Below, one piece after another: positions 55,200-63,811 of a stretch of DNA of 64,000 nt (the first letter of the stretch is position 1; each line of letters opens with the position of its first letter). This DNA comes from Dyella terrae. GTDB taxonomy: Bacteria > Pseudomonadota > Gammaproteobacteria > Xanthomonadales > Rhodanobacteraceae. The stretch covers positions 186,001 to 250,000 of the forward strand of contig NZ_SIZZ01000004.1 in assembly GCF_004322705.1 (NCBI RefSeq), written 5' to 3'. Both the position numbers and the translations under genes were made by a program. The notes beneath the pieces were generated by a model. It saw only the letters and a list, made by a program, of their open reading frames with translations, did not search any database and was not told the DNA's origin.

Positions 55200-55499
55200 A
55201 TGCAGTTCTTCCAGCTCGAACATTTCGCGAGCTACGTCAACGAGACGTTCCGGGTGCGCATCGACCAACACGGCGAAACGGATTTCGTACTGGTCGAAGC
55301 GGCGCCCATCCCGCAGGGCAAGCTCTTTCCCGGCATGGTGCGCACGCCGTTTTCGCTGTTGTTCCGTAACGAATCAGCGGTGCTTTTCCCGCAACGCATC
55401 TATGACATGACGCACGGCAAGCTCGGCCAGTTTGGCGTGTTCCTGGTGCCGATCGCGCGCGACAAATCGGGCTTCGTTTACCAGGCCGTGTTCAACTGA
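55200..55499 (+). CDS. DUF6916 family protein
   Basis: The 99-residue protein matches the small beta-rich DUF6916 group (FSLLFRNES, PQRIYDMTH and LGQFGVFLVPIARDKSGFVYQAVFN). I know the family mainly from its company with tail-collar (MdpB-like) genes, and the same company is seen here. It ends one base before the convergent GNAT gene's stop. GGGGATC is the only Shine-Dalgarno-like sequence before the ATG. Its function is unknown. A structural or chaperone role with the collar proteins is a guess. Confidence 0.75.
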   Translation: MQFFQLEHFASYVNETFRVRIDQHGETDFVLVEAAPIPQGKLFPGMVRTPFSLLFRNESAVLFPQRIYDMTHGKLGQFGVFLVPIARDKSGFVYQAVFN

Positions 55500-56051
55500 T
55501 CAGGCGGTAACGCCCGCGCGCCAGCGCATGCGCCACTGCACGTCGCCGACGTCTTCGCAGGCGAAGCCAAGGCGCGCGTAGAGGCGTTGGGCACCGTGGT
55601 TGTGTGCGTCGACCTGAAGGCTCACGGCCTGCATGCCGTTGCGCTGCACGGCGTCCTGCACGGTGCGCAGCAGATGCGTTCCCATGCCCGTACCCCGTTC
55701 GGATGGCATGAGCAGGATATCGATGATGTGGATCGCGTCTTCCGTGCCGTAGAGATACAGGCGTCCGACCGCACGACCCTCGCGCAAAACGACAAGGAAA
55801 TCGGCCGGCGTGTAGCAGGCGATGTAGTTGCGGTGTTGCATGTCGAACTGGCCATCGAGGAACGTCCGCAGCATCGACTCCGGCCAGCCAAGCGCCGCGA
55901 ACTCCGGGGCGCGGTGCTGCGCGTAAAGCTCACGCAGGAAGGGCAGGTCGTCGCCCGTGGCTGCACGCCACGAAAACGCCGGCGCGGAGGCCGGCGTCTC
56001 GTCGGGCATCCATCCCGCACGCGGCGGGAAGGCGGGCAGCGGGTGGTTCAC
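55500..56051 (-). CDS. GNAT family acetyltransferase
   Basis: The 183-residue N-acetyltransferase has the acetyl-CoA-binding core IIDILLMPSERGTGMGTHLLRTVQDAV (motif A, with the R-x-x-G-x-G type loop) and HNHGAQRLYARLGF (motif B). The substrate is unknown. Its start overlaps the stop of the third tail-collar gene by four bases, so translation is probably coupled. That ties it functionally to the collar genes, perhaps by modifying them (inference). Confidence 0.88.
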   Translation of the reverse strand: MNHPLPAFPPRAGWMPDETPASAPAFSWRAATGDDLPFLRELYAQHRAPEFAALGWPESMLRTFLDGQFDMQHRNYIACYTPADFLVVLREGRAVGRLYLYGTEDAIHIIDILLMPSERGTGMGTHLLRTVQDAVQRNGMQAVSLQVDAHNHGAQRLYARLGFACEDVGDVQWRMRWRAGVTA

Positions 56052-56578
56052 TGGAACGCCGGAAAATTGCCCTGCAGGCAGATGCAGAAATTCAGCGCCA
56101 GATAGGGCTGCATGTTCTCGTGCGGCAGCGACTGGCCCGTCACATCAAGCATCTGCAGCGGAAACTGCGTGTTGGGCGTCACGTCCTTGGTTGCGAGGGC
56201 GGCGTTGCCCGGCAGCGCCAGTGCGTCACCGTTGGCGGGCGTTGCATGGCGCTTGGTGGCATCACGCTGGTCGTACGCGCGCAGGCCATGCGTATGCTGG
56301 GGAATCTCCTGCAGCAGCAATGAAACCTGCTGCGAACCCTCTTGCTCGCCCTGCACCCACGGCGACAGTCCCGGACCCTGACCCGCACCAGCGACGACCT
56401 GGCCGCCCAGGTTGGGAAGCTGGAAGGTCGACTGCCCGTTACCGCCGAACTGCGTGCCAATCAACGAAAACAGCGCCGTGTTCTGCTGGATCGCGACGAG
56501 CTGACCCTGGCAAAACGCCCATTGAGCGGGCGCGAAGTTAAACGCGAAAAGCTGGATTTCCCCGGTGAAACTCTCCAT
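56048..56578 (-). CDS. Tail-collar domain protein 3 (MdpB-like)
   Basis: The 176-residue protein has the phage tail-collar fold pattern shared by the three paralogues. The start is GEIQLFAFNFAPAQWAFCQGQLVAIQQ, then LFSLIGTQFGGNGQSTFQLPNLGG, then HTHGL in the middle. The end is HENMQPYLALNFCICLQGNFP. Collar domains form trimeric tips of tail fibres. Chromosomal MdpB-like proteins (microcystin-dependent protein family) lack phage neighbours and are poorly understood. It is the last of the trio and overlaps the GNAT gene. Confidence 0.9.
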   Translation of the reverse strand: MESFTGEIQLFAFNFAPAQWAFCQGQLVAIQQNTALFSLIGTQFGGNGQSTFQLPNLGGQVVAGAGQGPGLSPWVQGEQEGSQQVSLLLQEIPQHTHGLRAYDQRDATKRHATPANGDALALPGNAALATKDVTPNTQFPLQMLDVTGQSLPHENMQPYLALNFCICLQGNFPAFQ

Positions 56579-56622
56579 CAGTCATTCTCTCTAGTAAGAA
56601 GTGGCGTCCAGAGGACAGCGGG

Positions 56623-57147
56623 TCAGTTCTGTGTCGGGAAGACGCCGGACACGCAAATGAAATAGCGCACGGCCACGGTCGGCATGATGTTGTCGTGTGG
56701 CAGGTTGCCACCCGACATGGTGACCGACGTCGCCAGGAAGGTCGCGCTGTTCACGTCCACCGTCGTGGAATACATCGTGTCGCCGCCGACGGCGCCGTAT
56801 TCAAGGGCGTTCGACGGTGCATTGGCCGTGGCGGTGGTCGTTGTCGCGTGCATGATATGAGTGTGCGTCGGCATGGTCTGCGCGGTGAGCGTGACCGTCT
56901 CCTTGCCGCCCACCTGGCCCAACACGCGAGTGCTCAGACCCTGCCCGGTGCCCTGGTGAACCGCTACGCGACTCTGGAGGTTGGGCAGGCCGAAGGTCTG
57001 TACGCCATCGCCGCCGTACGTGGTGCCGAGGAGCGTGTAGAGCGCATCGTTTTCGGCAATCGATACGAGTGCGCCATTGCATTCCATCCAACCCAGCGGA
57101 ACGCGCGTGTACGGGAGCAACCGGATTTCTCCGAGATAAGGTGTCAT
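56623..57147 (-). CDS. Tail-collar domain protein 2 (MdpB-like)
   Basis: This 174-residue paralogue begins TPYLGEIRLLPYTRVPLGWMECNGALVSI. It has LYTLLGTTYGGDGVQTFGLPNLQSRVAVH, a central PTHTHIMHA, and the end NLPHDNIMPTVAVRYFICVSGVFP. It is the most divergent of the three (Asn-Met-Gln-Pro of the others replaced by Asn-Ile-Met-Pro). It is 13 bases downstream of collar gene 1 and 44 bases upstream of collar gene 3. Confidence 0.9.
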   Translation of the reverse strand: MTPYLGEIRLLPYTRVPLGWMECNGALVSIAENDALYTLLGTTYGGDGVQTFGLPNLQSRVAVHQGTGQGLSTRVLGQVGGKETVTLTAQTMPTHTHIMHATTTTATANAPSNALEYGAVGGDTMYSTTVDVNSATFLATSVTMSGGNLPHDNIMPTVAVRYFICVSGVFPTQN

Positions 57148-57160
57148 GTCGATGCTCCGG

Positions 57161-57685
57161 TCAAGAACGGCTGGGAAAGAGGCCCTGGAGAGCGATGCAG
57201 AAGTTCACCACCAGGTAGGGCTGCATGTTTTCATGCGGGGCATTGCCGCCCACCGGCGCGATCTCCGCGGCGTTGAGCGATACCTGCGGGCCGGTGGCAT
57301 CCGCATACACGTTCTCGGAGCCCGTGTTGCCCGGTACGCCCAGCGCGGGATTGCGCGAGGTGGCCGCGACGTTGGTGCCCATGACGATGTGGTTGTGCGC
57401 AGGCAGGTTGTTCGTCGTCAGGGTGACCTGTTCGACGCCGCCGACCTGGCCGATCTGCCAGGGTTGTCCGCTTGAGGGGCTCACGCCTGTGCCCAGAGGC
57501 GTACGACCCTGCAGGTTGGGCAATTGGAAGACGGTGGTCCCGTTGCCCCCGTAGGTGGTGCCGAGCAATGAAAACAGCGCCTGGTTTTGCTGGATGGACA
57601 GGATCTGTCCATTGCAGAAGGCAAAATACTTGGGCGCGAAGTTAAAGCCGACGGGGATGATGTTCCCCATGAAGCGTTCCGACAT
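57161..57685 (-). CDS. Tail-collar domain protein 1 (MdpB-like)
   Basis: This 174-residue paralogue is first in the operon. Its signatures are GNIIPVGFNFAPKYFAFCNGQILSIQQ, LFSLLGTTYGGNGTTVFQLPNLQGR, NLPAHNHIV and ENMQPYLVVNFCIALQGLFP. A GGGGGA Shine-Dalgarno precedes the ATG. There is no signal peptide, so the protein is cytoplasmic, leaderless-exported or phage-like. The 283-base gap to the divergent autotransporter should hold both promoters. I could not pick a convincing pair. Confidence 0.92.
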   Translation of the reverse strand: MSERFMGNIIPVGFNFAPKYFAFCNGQILSIQQNQALFSLLGTTYGGNGTTVFQLPNLQGRTPLGTGVSPSSGQPWQIGQVGGVEQVTLTTNNLPAHNHIVMGTNVAATSRNPALGVPGNTGSENVYADATGPQVSLNAAEIAPVGGNAPHENMQPYLVVNFCIALQGLFPSRS

Positions 57686-57968
57686 GTTGTCCCCCGTGTC
57701 CGGCCAGCCGTCCCGGCTGCCCTGAGACTATTACTCTGGCGTACTGTCCCACTGCTTGACAAGACGCCCGTTCCGGCAGCGAAAATATCCGGTCGCAGGA
57801 AGTTACTCAGCATGGCAGGGAAGATCGGCCATGCGGGACGATTGAGCCCGTTGAGTCGCATTTTTGTACGGGGCAATTCCAGTCGCCATCTCACAGGGCC
57901 ACCGATGATGCGCGCCGCATCCGGTCGCCAGCGCAACGCCATGGAAGAGGCGCGCAAGGGGAATCCAC

Positions 57969-60900
57969 ATGCTGCTCCGTTCGCTGCTGCATCGCGTTGC
58001 GATGCGCTTTTCGTCGTACGCGCGTGTCGGGTGCGCGCTGGCTGTGTTGGCGATGCTCGCCGCGATGTGGCCGGCGCCAGCGATGGCGGCCAATTCGGTG
58101 TTGTGCGGGCCATACAACATCACCGTAGCGAGCGGTTCGTCCTATGACCTGGACGCGAATGATTGCGTATCCTTCGGCGGCGTCGGCAACATCGTGACGC
58201 CTGCACAGTGGGGCAACGTCGACCGTAATGTGGGCACGAGTCACTTCGTCTATTCGACGAACGATACGACGCACACGTCCGACTTCTTCTCCTTTCTGGA
58301 TTCCGACGGCGATCTTGTCCAGGTCAATGTCACGATTACTGGCGCCGCGTCGACAATTACTACCCAGGAATCGACGCTGCCCTCACCGCAGCGCAATGTC
58401 GCCTACAGCCAGCAGCTGCACGGCACCGGCGGCACCGGCCCCTATCAGTTCTCGGTGTCTGGCGGCCTGCCACCCGGCCTGACCATGTCGGGCACCGGCC
58501 TGATCTCCGGTACGCCGACGACGCTGGGCAACTACAACATCACGGTGACGGTGACTGATTCGACGGCGGCCACTGGCACGGCGGCCTTCAACCTGACGGT
58601 GACCCAGGCGACGATCACGGTGACCGGCACGCCGCCCAACGGCGCGGTCAGCACCACTTACAGCTATAAGTTCACCGCAACGGGTGGCGTGTCACCCTAC
58701 ACCTTCACCAAGGACACCGGCACGCTTCCCGCCGGCCTTACCCTGGCCTCGGACGGCACGCTCAGCGGCACGCCGACGACCCTCGGTACATCGAACTTCA
58801 ACATCAAGGCGATGGACGCGAACGGCGACTTTGCCGCCGCCAGTTTCGCCGTCAACATCCTCGCTGTCCCGCCGCCGGTCGCAGGCATTCAATCGGCGAC
58901 CGTTGCCCACGGCAGCAGCAGCAACAACATCAATCTGCCACTCACGGGCGGCCCGGCAACGAGCGTCGCCGTGAGTACCCAGGCGACGCACGGCACCGCG
59001 ACCGCAGTCGGCACGAGCATCACGTACACGCCGGTGGCCAGCTATTCGGGCACCGACTCGTTTGCCTACACCGCGACCAACGCGTCCGGTACATCGTCGC
59101 CGGCGACGGTGTCGATCACCGTCTCCAATGCGGCCATCGTTTACGCGCCGACAACGGTGGGGGGCACCGTGGGCGTGGCCTATAGCCAACCCATGGCCGG
59201 CGCAACCGGTGGCACCGCGCCGTACACCTACACGGCCAGTGGCTCGCTGCCGCCTGGCCTGACGCTTGCCGCCAACGGCACCTTGAGCGGCACACCCACG
59301 GGTGGCGGCACCTATACGTTCACGATCACAGCGAAGGACTCGAGCACCGGCACCGGACCCTTCAGCACGACGAGCGGCTCGCTCACGCTGAACATCGGTG
59401 CGCCCACGATCACGGTCACTCCGACCAGCCTGACGCTGAGGGCCGGCAACCCTGTATCGCAGACGATCGTCGCCTCCGGCGGCATATCGCCCCACACCTT
59501 CAGCGCTTTGGGCCTGCCCGCCGGCCTGACGCTGGATGCCAACGGCCTGCTCCACGGCACGCCAACGGCCACCGGCTCAGTCAACTTCACCATCACGGCG
59601 ACCGACAAGTCGACGGGCACGGGACCCTATACGGGATCCCAGGCGTACCCTCTGACCATCGGCGACCCGGTCCTGACGCTGTCGCCCGCGAGCGGCTCAC
59701 TCAATGCAACCTACGGCGTGGCCTACAGCCAGACGTTCACCACGGCCGGCGGCAATACGCCCTACCACTTCACACAGACCGGCACCCTGCCCAACGGCGT
59801 GAGCTTCAACGCATCCACCGGTCTACTTTCCGGTACGCCAACGCAACCGGGCAACTTCCCGATCACGATCTCGGTGACCGACAGCACCACTGGCACGGTC
59901 GGGCAGATCGCGGCGAACTACACGCTCATCGTCGACGTTCCGGCGATGAACCTGCCGCCGACGATTCCGGACACCGCGAAAATCGGGCAGCCATACACGT
60001 CCACCGTGGCCGTGACGGGCGGCGTTCCGCCGTACACCTACACGGTAGCGGGCGCACCATCGGGCCTGACCGTCTCGTCGACGACGGGCGAAATCAGCTG
60101 GACGCCGACGACGACGGCTACGTCGTCATTCACCCTCACCGTCAATGACAGCAACGGTGGTGTGGTATCGAAGCTGTATCAGCTGCATCCCGCCCCGCCG
60201 ACGCTGATCAACACCTCGACGTTCGATCAGACCACGACGGGCGGCGAGCCCTACACGGCCACCTTCAGTGCGACGGGCGGCACGGCGCCGTACGAGGTGA
60301 CCACGGCCAGTACCCTGCCCACGGGCCTCACCTTGGACCCGGCCACGGGCATCTTGTCGGGTACGCCCAAGCAGTCGGGCAACTTCAACCTGATCTTCAA
60401 GATCACCGACTCGAGCACGGGCACGGGTGCGCCTTTCTCCGTCAACGCGGTCGTGCAGCTGATCGTCAACCCGCCGGGCATCTCCCTGCCGACGACACTT
60501 CCGCTGCCGGTGATCGGGCAAAGCTACAACCACACGTTCACCGCCACGGGTGGCCATGGCCCGTACACGTATACGATGGACGCGGGGACGGTGCTCCCCA
60601 CCAGCATGATCTTCCACGGCGACGGCGCCATTTCCGGCACGCCGACCAAGGCGGGCCAGACGCAGTTCACCATCAAGGTCACCGACGACAACGGCTTCAC
60701 CGCCACGCAGGCCTACGACTGGACCCTGGCCCCGCCGCAGATTGCGATCACGGCGACCGTGCCATCGGCCGACGCGATGGTGCCGTACTCCGGCAGCGTG
60801 ACCGCATCCGGTGGCACGCCCGGTTACAGCTTCAGCGTCGGCACCGGGGGCCTGCCGCCAGGCATCAGCCTCTCTTCGTCGGGTCAGTTGTCAGGTGCCG

Positions 60901-63209
60901 CAACGGCGGCGGGTGACTTCACGTTCGAAGTGATCGCGACGGACACCACCACCGGGCCGAACGCGCCCTACGACGGCCGGCAGAGCGTCACCATCCACAT
61001 CGGCGCGCCGGCGATCTCGATCACGCCTACCTCCCTTCCGAACCAGAAGGTTGGCGTGCCGATGTCGTCGCAGCTGACGGCCTCGGGTATGGCCGGTTCA
61101 TTCACCTTCACGCTGTCCGGTGCGGGTGGCCTGCCCGTGGGCATCGGCTTGTCCAGCGCGGGCGTGCTCTCCGGTACGCCTACCACGCCGGGCAGCTACA
61201 ACTTCACCGTCAAGGCGACGGGGCCCGGTGGGTTCAGTGGCGAGCAGGCACTCACCATCAACGTGGTGGATGTGACGCCGGTTGCCGTCAACGACAACGC
61301 TGGGGTGAACGCGAACAGCGCCGTCACCATTCCGGTCACCAGCAACGACACGGGCCCGATCACCAGCATTGCCATCACCAGCGCCCCGGGGCATGGCACC
61401 GTCACGGTGAACGGCCTCAACGCGATCTACACGCCGGCGACCAACTTCTTCGGCACTGACACGTTCCACTACACCGCTACCGGCCCGGGCGGCACCTCGA
61501 ACGATGCGACCGTGACGGTGGCCGTCGCGCCGCTGGCCGTGCCGACGGCAGCACCGCAGACGATCACGGTGCTTGCCGGCCAGAGCGTGGTTATCCATGG
61601 TGCGGCTGGCGCCACGGGTTCGCCGTTCACCGGCCTGGCCATCTCGACGGCGCCGACCGTGGGAACGGTCACCGTCAGTGGCACCGACATGACGTACACG
61701 GCGGCCGCCGACGCGCAGGGCGCCACCGGATTCGACTACACGCTGTCCAATCCGTTTGGCACGTCCGCGCCGGCGCATGTGACGGTGACCGTCAATCCGC
61801 TGCCGATCACTGTGCCGAAGACGGCGGCGGTAGCGGCAGGTAAGCAGGTGACCGTCGATCTCACCGCTGGCGCGCATGGCGGCCCGTTCACCGCAGCCAC
61901 GCTGGTCTCGGTGACGCCGTCCAATGCCGGTACCGCCACGGTGCATGCGAGCGGCTCGGGCTACGCGCTCGATTTCACCGCCGACATCCACTACGCCGGT
62001 GACGCCGTGGTCACCTACACCCTCGCCAACGCCTATGCGACGTCGGCACCGGGTACGGTGACGGTCAAGGTGACCGGCCGCAGCGATCCCTCGAAGGACG
62101 CTGAAGTGCGCGGCATCCTGGACGCCCAGGCCGACGCCGCCCGCCGCCTGGCCATCGGCCAGATCAGCAACTTCACGCGTCGCCTGGAGAGCCTGCACAA
62201 CGGCGTCAGCAGCGGCTTCACCAACGGCATCACCATGGCCTCGGCCGGCAGCCGCCAGAACCGCGACCCGATGAACGGCCTGCGCGAAGGCGACGAGTTC
62301 ACCCGCCGCTACCTGGTGAACGACGACGAGCCCGGCACCTCGGGTGCGAAATCGGTGGGTCCCGGCCTGCCGGGTGACGTGGCCGTGTGGACCGGCGGTG
62401 CCGTGAACTTCGGCAAGAGCCAGGTCGGCGCCAGCGACAACGGCATCGACTTCACCACCTCGGGCCTCAGCCTCGGTATCGACAAGCAGTTCGGCCCGAA
62501 CCTCGCGCTGGGTGCCGGTGTGGGCTACGGTCACGATGCCTCGGACATCGGTCGCCACAACAGCCGCAGCACGGTCGACAGCTACAACGTGGCCATCTAC
62601 GGCAGCTACCGCCCGATCGCCTCGATGTACCTGGATGGCCTGGTCGGCTACCAGTGGCTCTCCTTCGACGCGCGCCGCTACGTCACCGACAACGGCAACA
62701 CCGTCCACGGCAGCCGCGACGGCAAGCAGTGGTTTGGCTCCTTCGCCATCGGCTACGAGCACCGCACCGACGGCAGCCTGGTGTCGCCGTACGCCCGCCT
62801 GGATATCGCGCAGGCCAAGCTCGACAGCTACACCGAGCAGGGCGACGCGATCTACGCGCTCAACTATGGTCGCCAGACGGTCAAGACGAGCACCGGCACC
62901 CTGGGTGTGCGTGCCGAATGGACGGCCAAACGTGATTACGGCGTGTGGATCCCGCGCCTGCGCGCCGAGTTCGGCCACGACTTCCAGGGCTCGAGCACGG
63001 CCACTATGCGTTACGCCGACCTGCTGACCGGCCCGATGTACCAGGCCACGCTCGCCAACCAGTCGCGCAACCACACCCTGCTGGGTGCCGGCATTGAGCT
63101 GCAGACCCTGGGCGGCTTCATCCTTCGCGCCGAGTACCAGAACCTGCTCGACAACAGCAGTCGCGACAACCAGTCGATCCTGCTCGGCGTGGAGAAGAAG
63201 TTCCCGTAA
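57969..63209 (+). CDS. Ig-repeat autotransporter adhesin (1746 aa)
   Basis: The signal peptide ends LAAMWPAPAMA (about 41 residues). A small N-terminal domain follows, then about ten putative-Ig (He_PIG) repeats of the LPPGLTL...G.LSGTPT..G.Y.FT....DS type. At least four cadherin-like/Big-type repeats (HGT.TV...ITYTP....GTDSF.YTATN) are interspersed or follow, to about residue 1380. A linker then leads into a C-terminal 12-strand autotransporter barrel (about 1460-1746). Type V secretion should place the passenger on the surface, probably as an adhesin. The last residues are KKFP, with Phe penultimate. AAGGGG seven bases before the ATG supports the start. It is divergent from the collar genes. 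Confidence 0.92.
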   Translation: MLLRSLLHRVAMRFSSYARVGCALAVLAMLAAMWPAPAMAANSVLCGPYNITVASGSSYDLDANDCVSFGGVGNIVTPAQWGNVDRNVGTSHFVYSTNDTTHTSDFFSFLDSDGDLVQVNVTITGAASTITTQESTLPSPQRNVAYSQQLHGTGGTGPYQFSVSGGLPPGLTMSGTGLISGTPTTLGNYNITVTVTDSTAATGTAAFNLTVTQATITVTGTPPNGAVSTTYSYKFTATGGVSPYTFTKDTGTLPAGLTLASDGTLSGTPTTLGTSNFNIKAMDANGDFAAASFAVNILAVPPPVAGIQSATVAHGSSSNNINLPLTGGPATSVAVSTQATHGTATAVGTSITYTPVASYSGTDSFAYTATNASGTSSPATVSITVSNAAIVYAPTTVGGTVGVAYSQPMAGATGGTAPYTYTASGSLPPGLTLAANGTLSGTPTGGGTYTFTITAKDSSTGTGPFSTTSGSLTLNIGAPTITVTPTSLTLRAGNPVSQTIVASGGISPHTFSALGLPAGLTLDANGLLHGTPTATGSVNFTITATDKSTGTGPYTGSQAYPLTIGDPVLTLSPASGSLNATYGVAYSQTFTTAGGNTPYHFTQTGTLPNGVSFNASTGLLSGTPTQPGNFPITISVTDSTTGTVGQIAANYTLIVDVPAMNLPPTIPDTAKIGQPYTSTVAVTGGVPPYTYTVAGAPSGLTVSSTTGEISWTPTTTATSSFTLTVNDSNGGVVSKLYQLHPAPPTLINTSTFDQTTTGGEPYTATFSATGGTAPYEVTTASTLPTGLTLDPATGILSGTPKQSGNFNLIFKITDSSTGTGAPFSVNAVVQLIVNPPGISLPTTLPLPVIGQSYNHTFTATGGHGPYTYTMDAGTVLPTSMIFHGDGAISGTPTKAGQTQFTIKVTDDNGFTATQAYDWTLAPPQIAITATVPSADAMVPYSGSVTASGGTPGYSFSVGTGGLPPGISLSSSGQLSGAATAAGDFTFEVIATDTTTGPNAPYDGRQSVTIHIGAPAISITPTSLPNQKVGVPMSSQLTASGMAGSFTFTLSGAGGLPVGIGLSSAGVLSGTPTTPGSYNFTVKATGPGGFSGEQALTINVVDVTPVAVNDNAGVNANSAVTIPVTSNDTGPITSIAITSAPGHGTVTVNGLNAIYTPATNFFGTDTFHYTATGPGGTSNDATVTVAVAPLAVPTAAPQTITVLAGQSVVIHGAAGATGSPFTGLAISTAPTVGTVTVSGTDMTYTAAADAQGATGFDYTLSNPFGTSAPAHVTVTVNPLPITVPKTAAVAAGKQVTVDLTAGAHGGPFTAATLVSVTPSNAGTATVHASGSGYALDFTADIHYAGDAVVTYTLANAYATSAPGTVTVKVTGRSDPSKDAEVRGILDAQADAARRLAIGQISNFTRRLESLHNGVSSGFTNGITMASAGSRQNRDPMNGLREGDEFTRRYLVNDDEPGTSGAKSVGPGLPGDVAVWTGGAVNFGKSQVGASDNGIDFTTSGLSLGIDKQFGPNLALGAGVGYGHDASDIGRHNSRSTVDSYNVAIYGSYRPIASMYLDGLVGYQWLSFDARRYVTDNGNTVHGSRDGKQWFGSFAIGYEHRTDGSLVSPYARLDIAQAKLDSYTEQGDAIYALNYGRQTVKTSTGTLGVRAEWTAKRDYGVWIPRLRAEFGHDFQGSSTATMRYADLLTGPMYQATLANQSRNHTLLGAGIELQTLGGFILRAEYQNLLDNSSRDNQSILLGVEKKFP

Positions 63210-63246: not shown

Positions 63247-63331
63247 AGCGGTTCACCTATGGCTTCCGGCGAATCCCGCCGGAGCCTCGCACGGCATACG
63301 CTGACCGGTGTCCCCACGCTGGAGCCGTGTC

Positions 63332-63811
63332 ATGCCCATGGCCACGTCCGATCTGAATGACACGCGCCGCCGCGTGATGCTGATGCTCGCCGACACCATT
63401 GATACCTTCGAGGTGATCGGCATCAATGCGCCTTTCATGTTCGGCGACGCCGCCGACCGCGTGCGCGCCGCCATCGACGAATGCCTGGGTGATGTCTGGC
63501 GTCGTCCGGCCGACGCGGGACTGGTGCACCCGGAGGCGCTGATTTTCGCCACGCCGCTGGAGCGCTTTCAGCGCGCGGGTTTCTATGGCGCGCAGCTGGA
63601 CTTGAAAGAGCAGCAGGTCACGCGTGCGAATCGGTCCCTGCGCGAAGCCATTGCCAGCCGTTTACGCGGCACATGGATCAAGCCGTTCCGTAAATGGATC
63701 GACGCGATCAACAACTTCCTGACCAGCCTGATCGGCGCATCGGGCATTCCCGAGGCGCTCAAAGAGCTGAAGGATTGCCTGCGCGATGAGCTTGAGGACG
63801 ACGAACCGTAA
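63332..63811 (+). CDS. Protein of unknown function (159 aa)
   Basis: No family is recognised. The 159-residue soluble protein is helical, with an alternating hydrophobic start (RRRVMLMLADTIDTFEVIGI). It has a helical C-terminal half (FRKWIDAINNFLTSLIG, EALKELKDCLRDELED) and no signal peptide. A second ATG two codons on is possible. It stands between the autotransporter hairpin and the convergent CDF gene. Confidence 0.6.
   Translation: MPMATSDLNDTRRRVMLMLADTIDTFEVIGINAPFMFGDAADRVRAAIDECLGDVWRRPADAGLVHPEALIFATPLERFQRAGFYGAQLDLKEQQVTRANRSLREAIASRLRGTWIKPFRKWIDAINNFLTSLIGASGIPEALKELKDCLRDELEDDEP

Follow-up and report, generated by a model that had tools for sequence, protein, structure and literature searches.

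Cells have retained phage tails in several domesticated forms, including tailocins, extracellular contractile injection systems (eCIS), type VI secretion systems (T6SS) and gene transfer agents. Among the phage parts themselves, the short tail fibre protein gp12 of T4 is a homotrimer in which metal is bound through histidine pairs of the H-x-H kind, and, at the bacterial surface, the autotransporters that we know of are taken to be self-contained. The collar domain (PF07484/COG4675) is also carried by RhiB, encoded by the Rhizobium rhiABC(D) operon, which is linked to plant interaction (PMC13133039, PMC6969944). Here we describe a module found in a stretch of 64,000 nucleotides of Dyella terrae (contig NZ_SIZZ01000004.1, positions 186,001 to 250,000; the window in what follows), composed of three collar-domain genes (the trio), a GNAT acetyltransferase gene and a DUF6916 gene, and lying beside the gene of a giant Ig-repeat autotransporter. 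The module is real, widespread and unlike phage, and we consider it probable that the trio forms a heterotrimeric head, similar to a phage tip, which functions extracellularly alongside a giant surface protein, and that the GNAT and DUF6916 proteins modify or assemble it. No prior description of the module was found in the literature searched, which left out preprints, most subscription journals and supplements.

Results

The module and its neighbours in the window

The open reading frames (ORFs) and Pfam matches define the following features:

55200..55499, plus strand: DUF6916 protein (PF21880), 99 residues; ORF with a Pfam match at E 2.1e-29
55500..56051, minus strand: GNAT acetyltransferase, 183 residues; Pfam PF00583, E 8.6e-16
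56048..56578, minus strand: collar protein 3 (PF07484), 176 residues; Pfam match; no hydrophobic N-terminal segment by hydropathy
56623..57147, minus strand: collar protein 2 (PF07484), 174 residues; Pfam match; no hydrophobic N-terminal segment by hydropathy
57161..57685, minus strand: collar protein 1 (PF07484), 174 residues; first gene of the operon; no hydrophobic N-terminal segment
57686..57968, no strand: intergenic region of 283 bases separating the collar operon from the divergent autotransporter gene
57969..63209, plus strand: Ig-repeat (He_PIG, Big_9) autotransporter, 1746 residues; the giant partner, with a hydrophobic N-terminal segment and a barrel at residues 1473-1724

The gene coordinates, spacings and domain calls of an earlier note, made on this DNA from its letters, were all correct when compared with the ORFs and Pfam: the collar and GNAT genes are separated by 13 and 44 bases and then overlap by 4, and DUF6916 abuts the GNAT gene exactly, tail to tail. 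The three collars belong to PF07484 (E 2.3e-25, 3.3e-22 and 2.3e-25; 78.6-88.8 bits, with a Pfam cut-off of 24) and are the only matches to this family in the whole window genome, and the DUF6916 protein belongs to PF21880 (101.9 bits, cut-off 27). In alignment, collars 2 and 3 are 37% and 45% identical to collar 1. The note had also described the paralogues as sharing both ends and differing in the middle, and this is what the pairs show: 43-50% identity over columns 1-100 and 40-63% at the end, against 14-17% over columns 101-153.

The giant partner has the parts of a type Va autotransporter, namely a hydrophobic N-terminal signal (by hydropathy only), a repeat passenger (He_PIG, E 2.7e-99 in 10 stretches) and a C-terminal PF03797 barrel (E 2.7e-52, Pfam). 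A consensus scan found no sigma-70-like site in 57686..57968. Among the nearest neighbours, which are the part of the window scanned for phage genes, no tube, sheath, baseplate, capsid or integrase gene was seen, in keeping with the note's description of a module without phage; by Pfam these neighbours are a LysR regulator, an aldehyde dehydrogenase, a hydrolase and an unmatched ORF. The last, of 167 residues (window 63308-63811), lies downstream of the autotransporter and has no Pfam or NCBIfam match.

The trio, GNAT and DUF6916 are conserved together

We sampled 97 genomes of the family, with counts not corrected for relatedness. DUF6916 is present in 48 and PF07484 in 49 of them; 47 carry both, 47 neither, one DUF6916 alone and two a collar alone, so the co-occurrence of DUF6916 with collars is more than chance. 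G003, which belongs to the collar-only pair, does show a weak DUF6916 match beside its collar when a profile built in this work is used (L243). Exactly three collars are found in 39 of the 48 DUF6916 genomes. Of the 47 such genomes other than that of the window, 40 provided the main set of regions and six more were examined later, G039 being left out. Trio and GNAT are present in all 40 regions of the main set; among the six later ones, two hold a trio, in one the trio is spread over small contigs, and three hold a single collar together with a giant ORF, GNAT and DUF6916. In 27 of the 40 regions the divergent neighbour is a relative of the window's Ig autotransporter, 26 of them with the barrel found near by and the other (L055), cut by a contig end, recognised from its passenger. 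Inspection of the maps placed the trio on the strand of the giant gene in the other 13 of the 40, behind it in 10 and ahead of it in 3; the two that were looked at among the latter giants have 1496 and 1310 residues.

Some loci show further arrangements. One genome holds two collar modules about 13 kb apart (G016:C2:3940181-3960180, L056), and two same-strand loci carry an unmatched gene of about 213 residues with a signal-like start between trio and GNAT (L058:10838-11473 and L061:8748-9389).

The same association extends well beyond the family. In 398 genomes drawn across the phylum, DUF6916 is found in 44, PF07484 in 100 and both in 43; the 57 collar-only genomes are probably a mixed set, since PF07484 also counts prophage collars. 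Inspection of 40 further regions from this sample revealed three collars in 22 (one cut by a contig end), two in 3, one in 13 and none in 2, and in one of the regions without a collar (G147) the trio is elsewhere on the same contig. A collar scan of named genomes was evaluated through its best 80 loci of at least 589, a set which overlaps with the others (L111 and L129 share their contigs with the genomes that gave L069 and L076). Here, exactly three collars are present in 55 of the 80 loci and a single one in 19; a module-type GNAT, defined as scoring above 50 bits, is found in 64, DUF6916 in 53 and both in 51. Trios occur in nine phyla, and the full set of trio, GNAT and DUF6916 in seven of them (Pseudomonadota, Acidobacteriota, Bacteroidota, Bacillota, Chloroflexota, Actinomycetota and Planctomycetota), the remaining two being Verrucomicrobiota and Kiritimatiellota. 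The layout of the window recurs, per annotation, on plasmid pB of Sinorhizobium meliloti, where a 'putative Ig domain-containing protein' gene is divergent from three 'tail fiber protein' genes, followed by an N-acetyltransferase gene and then by a convergent hypothetical gene which occupies, in the annotation, the place of DUF6916.

Variants of the gene set were also seen: two DUF6916 genes tail to tail beside the trio (L111, L112 and L113), a Peripla_BP_6 substrate-binding protein between trio and GNAT in Deinococcus ficus (L193:7081-8241), and an unmatched gene of 405 residues in the same place in Ruegeria TM1040 (L192).

Three collars as probable parts of one structure

A collar tree of 366 rows (121 trios and that of the window) requires 37 changes of operon position, compared with at least 158 in 100 shuffles within loci, and in a maximum-likelihood tree of 29 loci 18 changes are needed, compared with at least 32 in 500 shuffles. 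These counts indicate that the collar paralogues are old and that their order has mostly been kept, and position within the trio is largely orthologous across phyla.

Natural fusions exist as well. A screen for collar length returned 14 long ORFs, of which, by inspection, 11 are overlapping out-of-frame extensions, one (L244) is phage-like and two, both from Paenibacillus, were kept; in these two loci, two collars are fused in one open frame and the third is separate. In addition, five genomes of one family (5/149 searched, E<=1e-40; L253, L254, L257, L258 and L259), apparently sphingomonad-type, encode three collars in a single chain. Each chain comprises three N-parts and three C-parts in the circularly permuted order C-N-C-N-C-N, with the variable middle (profile positions ~105 to 140) unmatched. 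Their ends are of export type: the tail of L253 matches PEPxxWA-CTERM (53.2 bits, cut-off 35), that of L254 consists of RTX-type repeats (calcium-repeat models, E 5e-36, with scores below the curated cut-offs), and the other three have, by inspection, the same kinds of end. Overall, a signal peptide (by inspection) and a PEP-CTERM-like tail are present in three of the five and RTX-type repeats in two. The order C-N-C-N-C-N is what would be expected from a closed ring of three units cut at a new place, which would work outside the cell.

A phage-tip-like domain without a hydrophobic N-terminal segment

Compared with the PDB, the collar profile matched a phage long tail fibre (8kec, E 4.2e-10) and the T4 short tail fibre (1ocy, E 6.1e-6). 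Every one of the 363 collars carries an H-x-H pair within residues 81-120, and H97, H99, H151 and N153 are invariant among 78 collar sequences. The T4 gp12 alignment stops before the histidines of gp12, and the likeness to gp12 is one of sequence; the collars would probably bind metal. Their N-termini lack a hydrophobic segment (highest 12-residue mean hydropathy 1.95, median 1.08, hydropathy only), and this holds also beside Gram-positive partners. A PF07484 protein of Ruegeria pomeroyi, which may or may not belong to a trio, appears in an exoproteome (PMC4949626), and the COG4675 'microcystin-dependent protein' has been recorded in a soil metaproteome (PMC5579227).

Giant partners with different anchors

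Giant ORFs were sought with a filter for proteins of at least 900 residues with a low content of R and H and a high content of G, T, S, N, V and D. Such an ORF is present in 40/40 family regions, 22/40 phylum regions and 44/80 named loci, and in 2/40 control regions of the same genomes; taking family and phylum together, 62/80 module regions compare with 2/40 controls. Several of the regions stop short at a contig end, and the counts include related genomes, which are not independent observations. From the 122 partners found near collars we scanned 98 C-termini, plus that of the window, after dropping rows truncated at the end of the locus and rows with unknown residues. The 99 include 30 autotransporter barrels, 4 Por_Secre_tail, 3 SLH, 1 CWB2 and 1 RTX domain, the matches of most others being uninformative on the anchor; the L240 partner is a two-partner-secretion protein, and that of Ruegeria TM1040 is an Ig autotransporter with other repeat families. 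Thus the routes used by the partners vary, from autotransporter and two-partner secretion to type IX secretion, S-layer and cell-wall binding, or a position next to OEP and HlyD genes. The last case is that of L102, where a DUF4347 giant and OEP, HlyD and M50-HlyD genes lie beside a single collar; a weakly sulfotransferase-like gene and an Asp/Asn hydroxylase gene are also present at this locus. The window genome holds a second autotransporter (L235, G000:C1:2146397-2147314), whose barrel is 66% identical and which has no collars near by.

A C-terminal domain of ~95 residues, unmatched in Pfam, is common to 29 of the 99 partners after iteration (alignment A7). Its profile hits 12 places in 11/97 family genomes and 3 in the 398 phylum genomes, 14 of them distinct, and coordinate comparison puts all 14 directly upstream of a trio. 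This speaks for specificity more than for discovery, because the model already contained all of the 14 but two (G147 and the second copy in G016).

The probable helper proteins

The window GNAT is nearest to RimI among the NCBIfam models, scoring 48.5 bits with TIGR01575, which is below the cut-off of 86.4 and leaves it outside rimI, and of its three PDB matches two are named N-terminal acetyltransferase. Residue 2 of the collars, counted from a start Met that had to occur within the first four residues (23 rows without one were dropped), is S, A, T or G in 314/340 compared with 304/788 background genes, a contrast inflated because the rows are related; this residue may be conserved for other reasons, and collar 3 of the window has E there. 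In three loci of Bacteroidota (L164, L168 and L194) in which no GNAT was seen, the collars have a formyltransferase as neighbour; this would fit the acylation of an amine. GNAT is accordingly a candidate modifier of collar N-termini.

DUF6916 was modelled as a small beta fold with a mean predicted local distance difference test score (pLDDT) of 93; the model had no fold match in the PDB at E<=0.001, and its non-significant resemblances to phage neck, Hcp and PilZ proteins are not evidence. The sequence surrounding the five fused genes, 4.1-5.0 kb in each case, contains no GNAT or DUF6916 match, and the phylum genomes of the fused kind (G395 and G227) are outside the 44 with DUF6916. The absence of DUF6916 beside fusions fits a role in assembling separate chains, and the protein is a possible assembly factor.

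Discussion

As the earlier note had proposed, the trio belongs with GNAT and DUF6916 in a single unit, which is conserved, and the association with giant surface proteins which the note had suggested is upheld: far from the rare co-occurrence that would have told against it, a giant repeat ORF stands in every one of the 40 family regions and an Ig autotransporter in 27. We probably deal with a surface system, and in this the note was largely right; the trio is better read, however, as the subunits of one trimer, and the partner is not necessarily an autotransporter. Where the note saw three tips specialised for different partners, the fusions and the conservation of position speak for subunits, three in number, of a single head. 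The special tie to the Ig autotransporter did not hold, since partners use several different export and anchor routes, nor does the autotransporter need the trio: the window genome has a collar-free paralogue, and the gene persists in two genomes (G013 and G034) that contain no collar at all. The autotransporter was rejected as an obligate partner because partner types vary and because it also occurs without the trio.

In the mechanism that we favour, the three collar genes would give the three subunits of a single heterotrimeric head. In build it would resemble the tip, with its bound metal, of a phage short tail fibre, but it would have no shaft, tube or baseplate. This head would work extracellularly with the giant repeat protein, which would reach its place by the usual export and anchor route of the host, here type Va autotransport, and would most likely cap or decorate the giant, offering variable loops for ligand binding; GNAT would most likely N-acetylate the collar chains and DUF6916 would help to assemble the three different chains. 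The natural fusions support an extracellular trimer, and the linkage of the genes suggests docking on the giant.

Several observations weigh against this picture: (i) of the collar only the monomer was modelled, with a middling result (mean pLDDT 78, predicted template modelling score 0.52). (ii) The main difficulty is that, over the first 40 residues, the 12-residue mean hydropathy stays below 2.0 in all 363 collars. (iii) The positional clades are imperfect (best F1 0.80, 0.80 and 0.63), and 4/5 trios of Bacillota have a first collar that groups with the second-collar clade. (iv) At the 19/80 single-collar loci a homotrimer must do. (v) Of the 32 phylum genomes with exactly three collars, 8 have no DUF6916, two of the fused kind and six others. 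(vi) By inspection, the two RTX fusions have no H-x-H pairs. (vii) A giant ORF was not detected in 18/40 phylum regions (several cut, two collar-free) or 36/80 named loci, the autotransporter exists without any collar in G013 and G034, and every partner link is one of gene neighbourhood.

The collars could instead be intracellular factors for folding or quality control of the giant protein before its export, never reaching the surface. We hold this to be rather unlikely: the missing hydrophobic N-terminal segment, the tightness of the operon with GNAT and DUF6916 and the constancy of these helpers while the partner changes would all suit such a role, but in the fusions the three collars either follow a signal peptide and end in PEP-CTERM or stand before RTX-type repeats, a PF07484 protein has been listed in an exoproteome, and the known relatives are tips of phage tail fibres. 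Decidedly less probable is a module that makes or caps a glycan, in which GNAT or formyltransferase would acylate an amino sugar and the collars would be lectin-like. The formyltransferase of the three Bacteroidota loci, the weak sulfotransferase match near the DUF4347 partner of L102 and the glycosyltransferases near the Deinococcus ficus copy are compatible with it; however, glycosyltransferases accompany only this one of the four annotated plasmid regions (the regions in which glycan genes were looked for), RimI is the best curated match of GNAT, albeit below cut-off, N-terminal acetyltransferases make up most of its PDB matches, and collar residue 2 is mostly small.

There is finally very little to recommend, in our judgement, a domesticated or selfish fragment of phage, such as a phage decoy or a defence device, whose position next to giant genes would be incidental. 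The collar domain is indeed of the phage tail-tip kind, its distribution in the family is patchy, and 64 plasmid records contain a match; yet in 50,697 phage records the window DUF6916 has zero matches and the window collar has 122, all below 60% identity and none above 37% among the 15 listed, PADLOC models match 0/6 of the proteins of the window locus, and giant ORFs are enriched relative to controls from the same genomes. A known anti-phage defence system was rejected on the lack of a PADLOC match, and a prophage remnant on the three collars being the only ones in the genome, on the lack of phage genes among the nearest neighbours and on the comparison of collar and DUF6916 with the phage records.

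Returning to the heterotrimeric head, a broader and tentative reading, which we would not yet put at even chances, is that of a head kit used across bacteria: an ancient heterotrimer with three non-equivalent faces and the fold of a phage receptor-binding tip, exported without a signal peptide and docking on giants that differ in anchor class, in one of these classes by way of the Pfam-unmatched C-terminal domain. Phage tips may have been drawn from such a kit in cells, or the kit from phage tips. If the head is real, bacterial chromosomal and plasmid genes annotated as 'tail fiber protein' would be parts of a cell-surface device, DUF6916 would gain a role, the threefold occurrence of the collars would be explained, and a phage receptor-binding fold would be tied to bacterial surface proteins. 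It would also raise the question by what route proteins that have no signal peptide arrive at the surface, if indeed they get there, in diderm as well as in monoderm cells.

How does the module compare with what is already described? With the T4 gp12 short tail fibre the trio shares the collar domain, by profile, and the H-x-H pair; in contrast, it has no shaft, no tube, sheath or baseplate genes were seen beside it, it consists of three different chains instead of a homotrimer, it is accompanied by GNAT and DUF6916, and it resides on cellular chromosomes and plasmids. Like the trio, RhiB is a stand-alone PF07484/COG4675 protein in a cellular operon; by description, however, it is one collar with RhiA, RhiC, RhiD and quorum-sensing genes, and the passages that describe it mention no trio, GNAT or DUF6916. 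In the four plasmid regions, the annotation shows no rhi genes. Domesticated phage tails resemble the module in that a structural domain of phage type has been retained by cells, whereas the neighbours of the module, as far as they were scanned or annotated, include no gene for a tube, sheath or baseplate. With the type Va autotransporter adhesins, the window partner has in common its repeats, here He_PIG, and the PF03797 barrel; unlike them, it has a collar module encoded divergently at its side, and that same module is also found beside partners which have no barrel.

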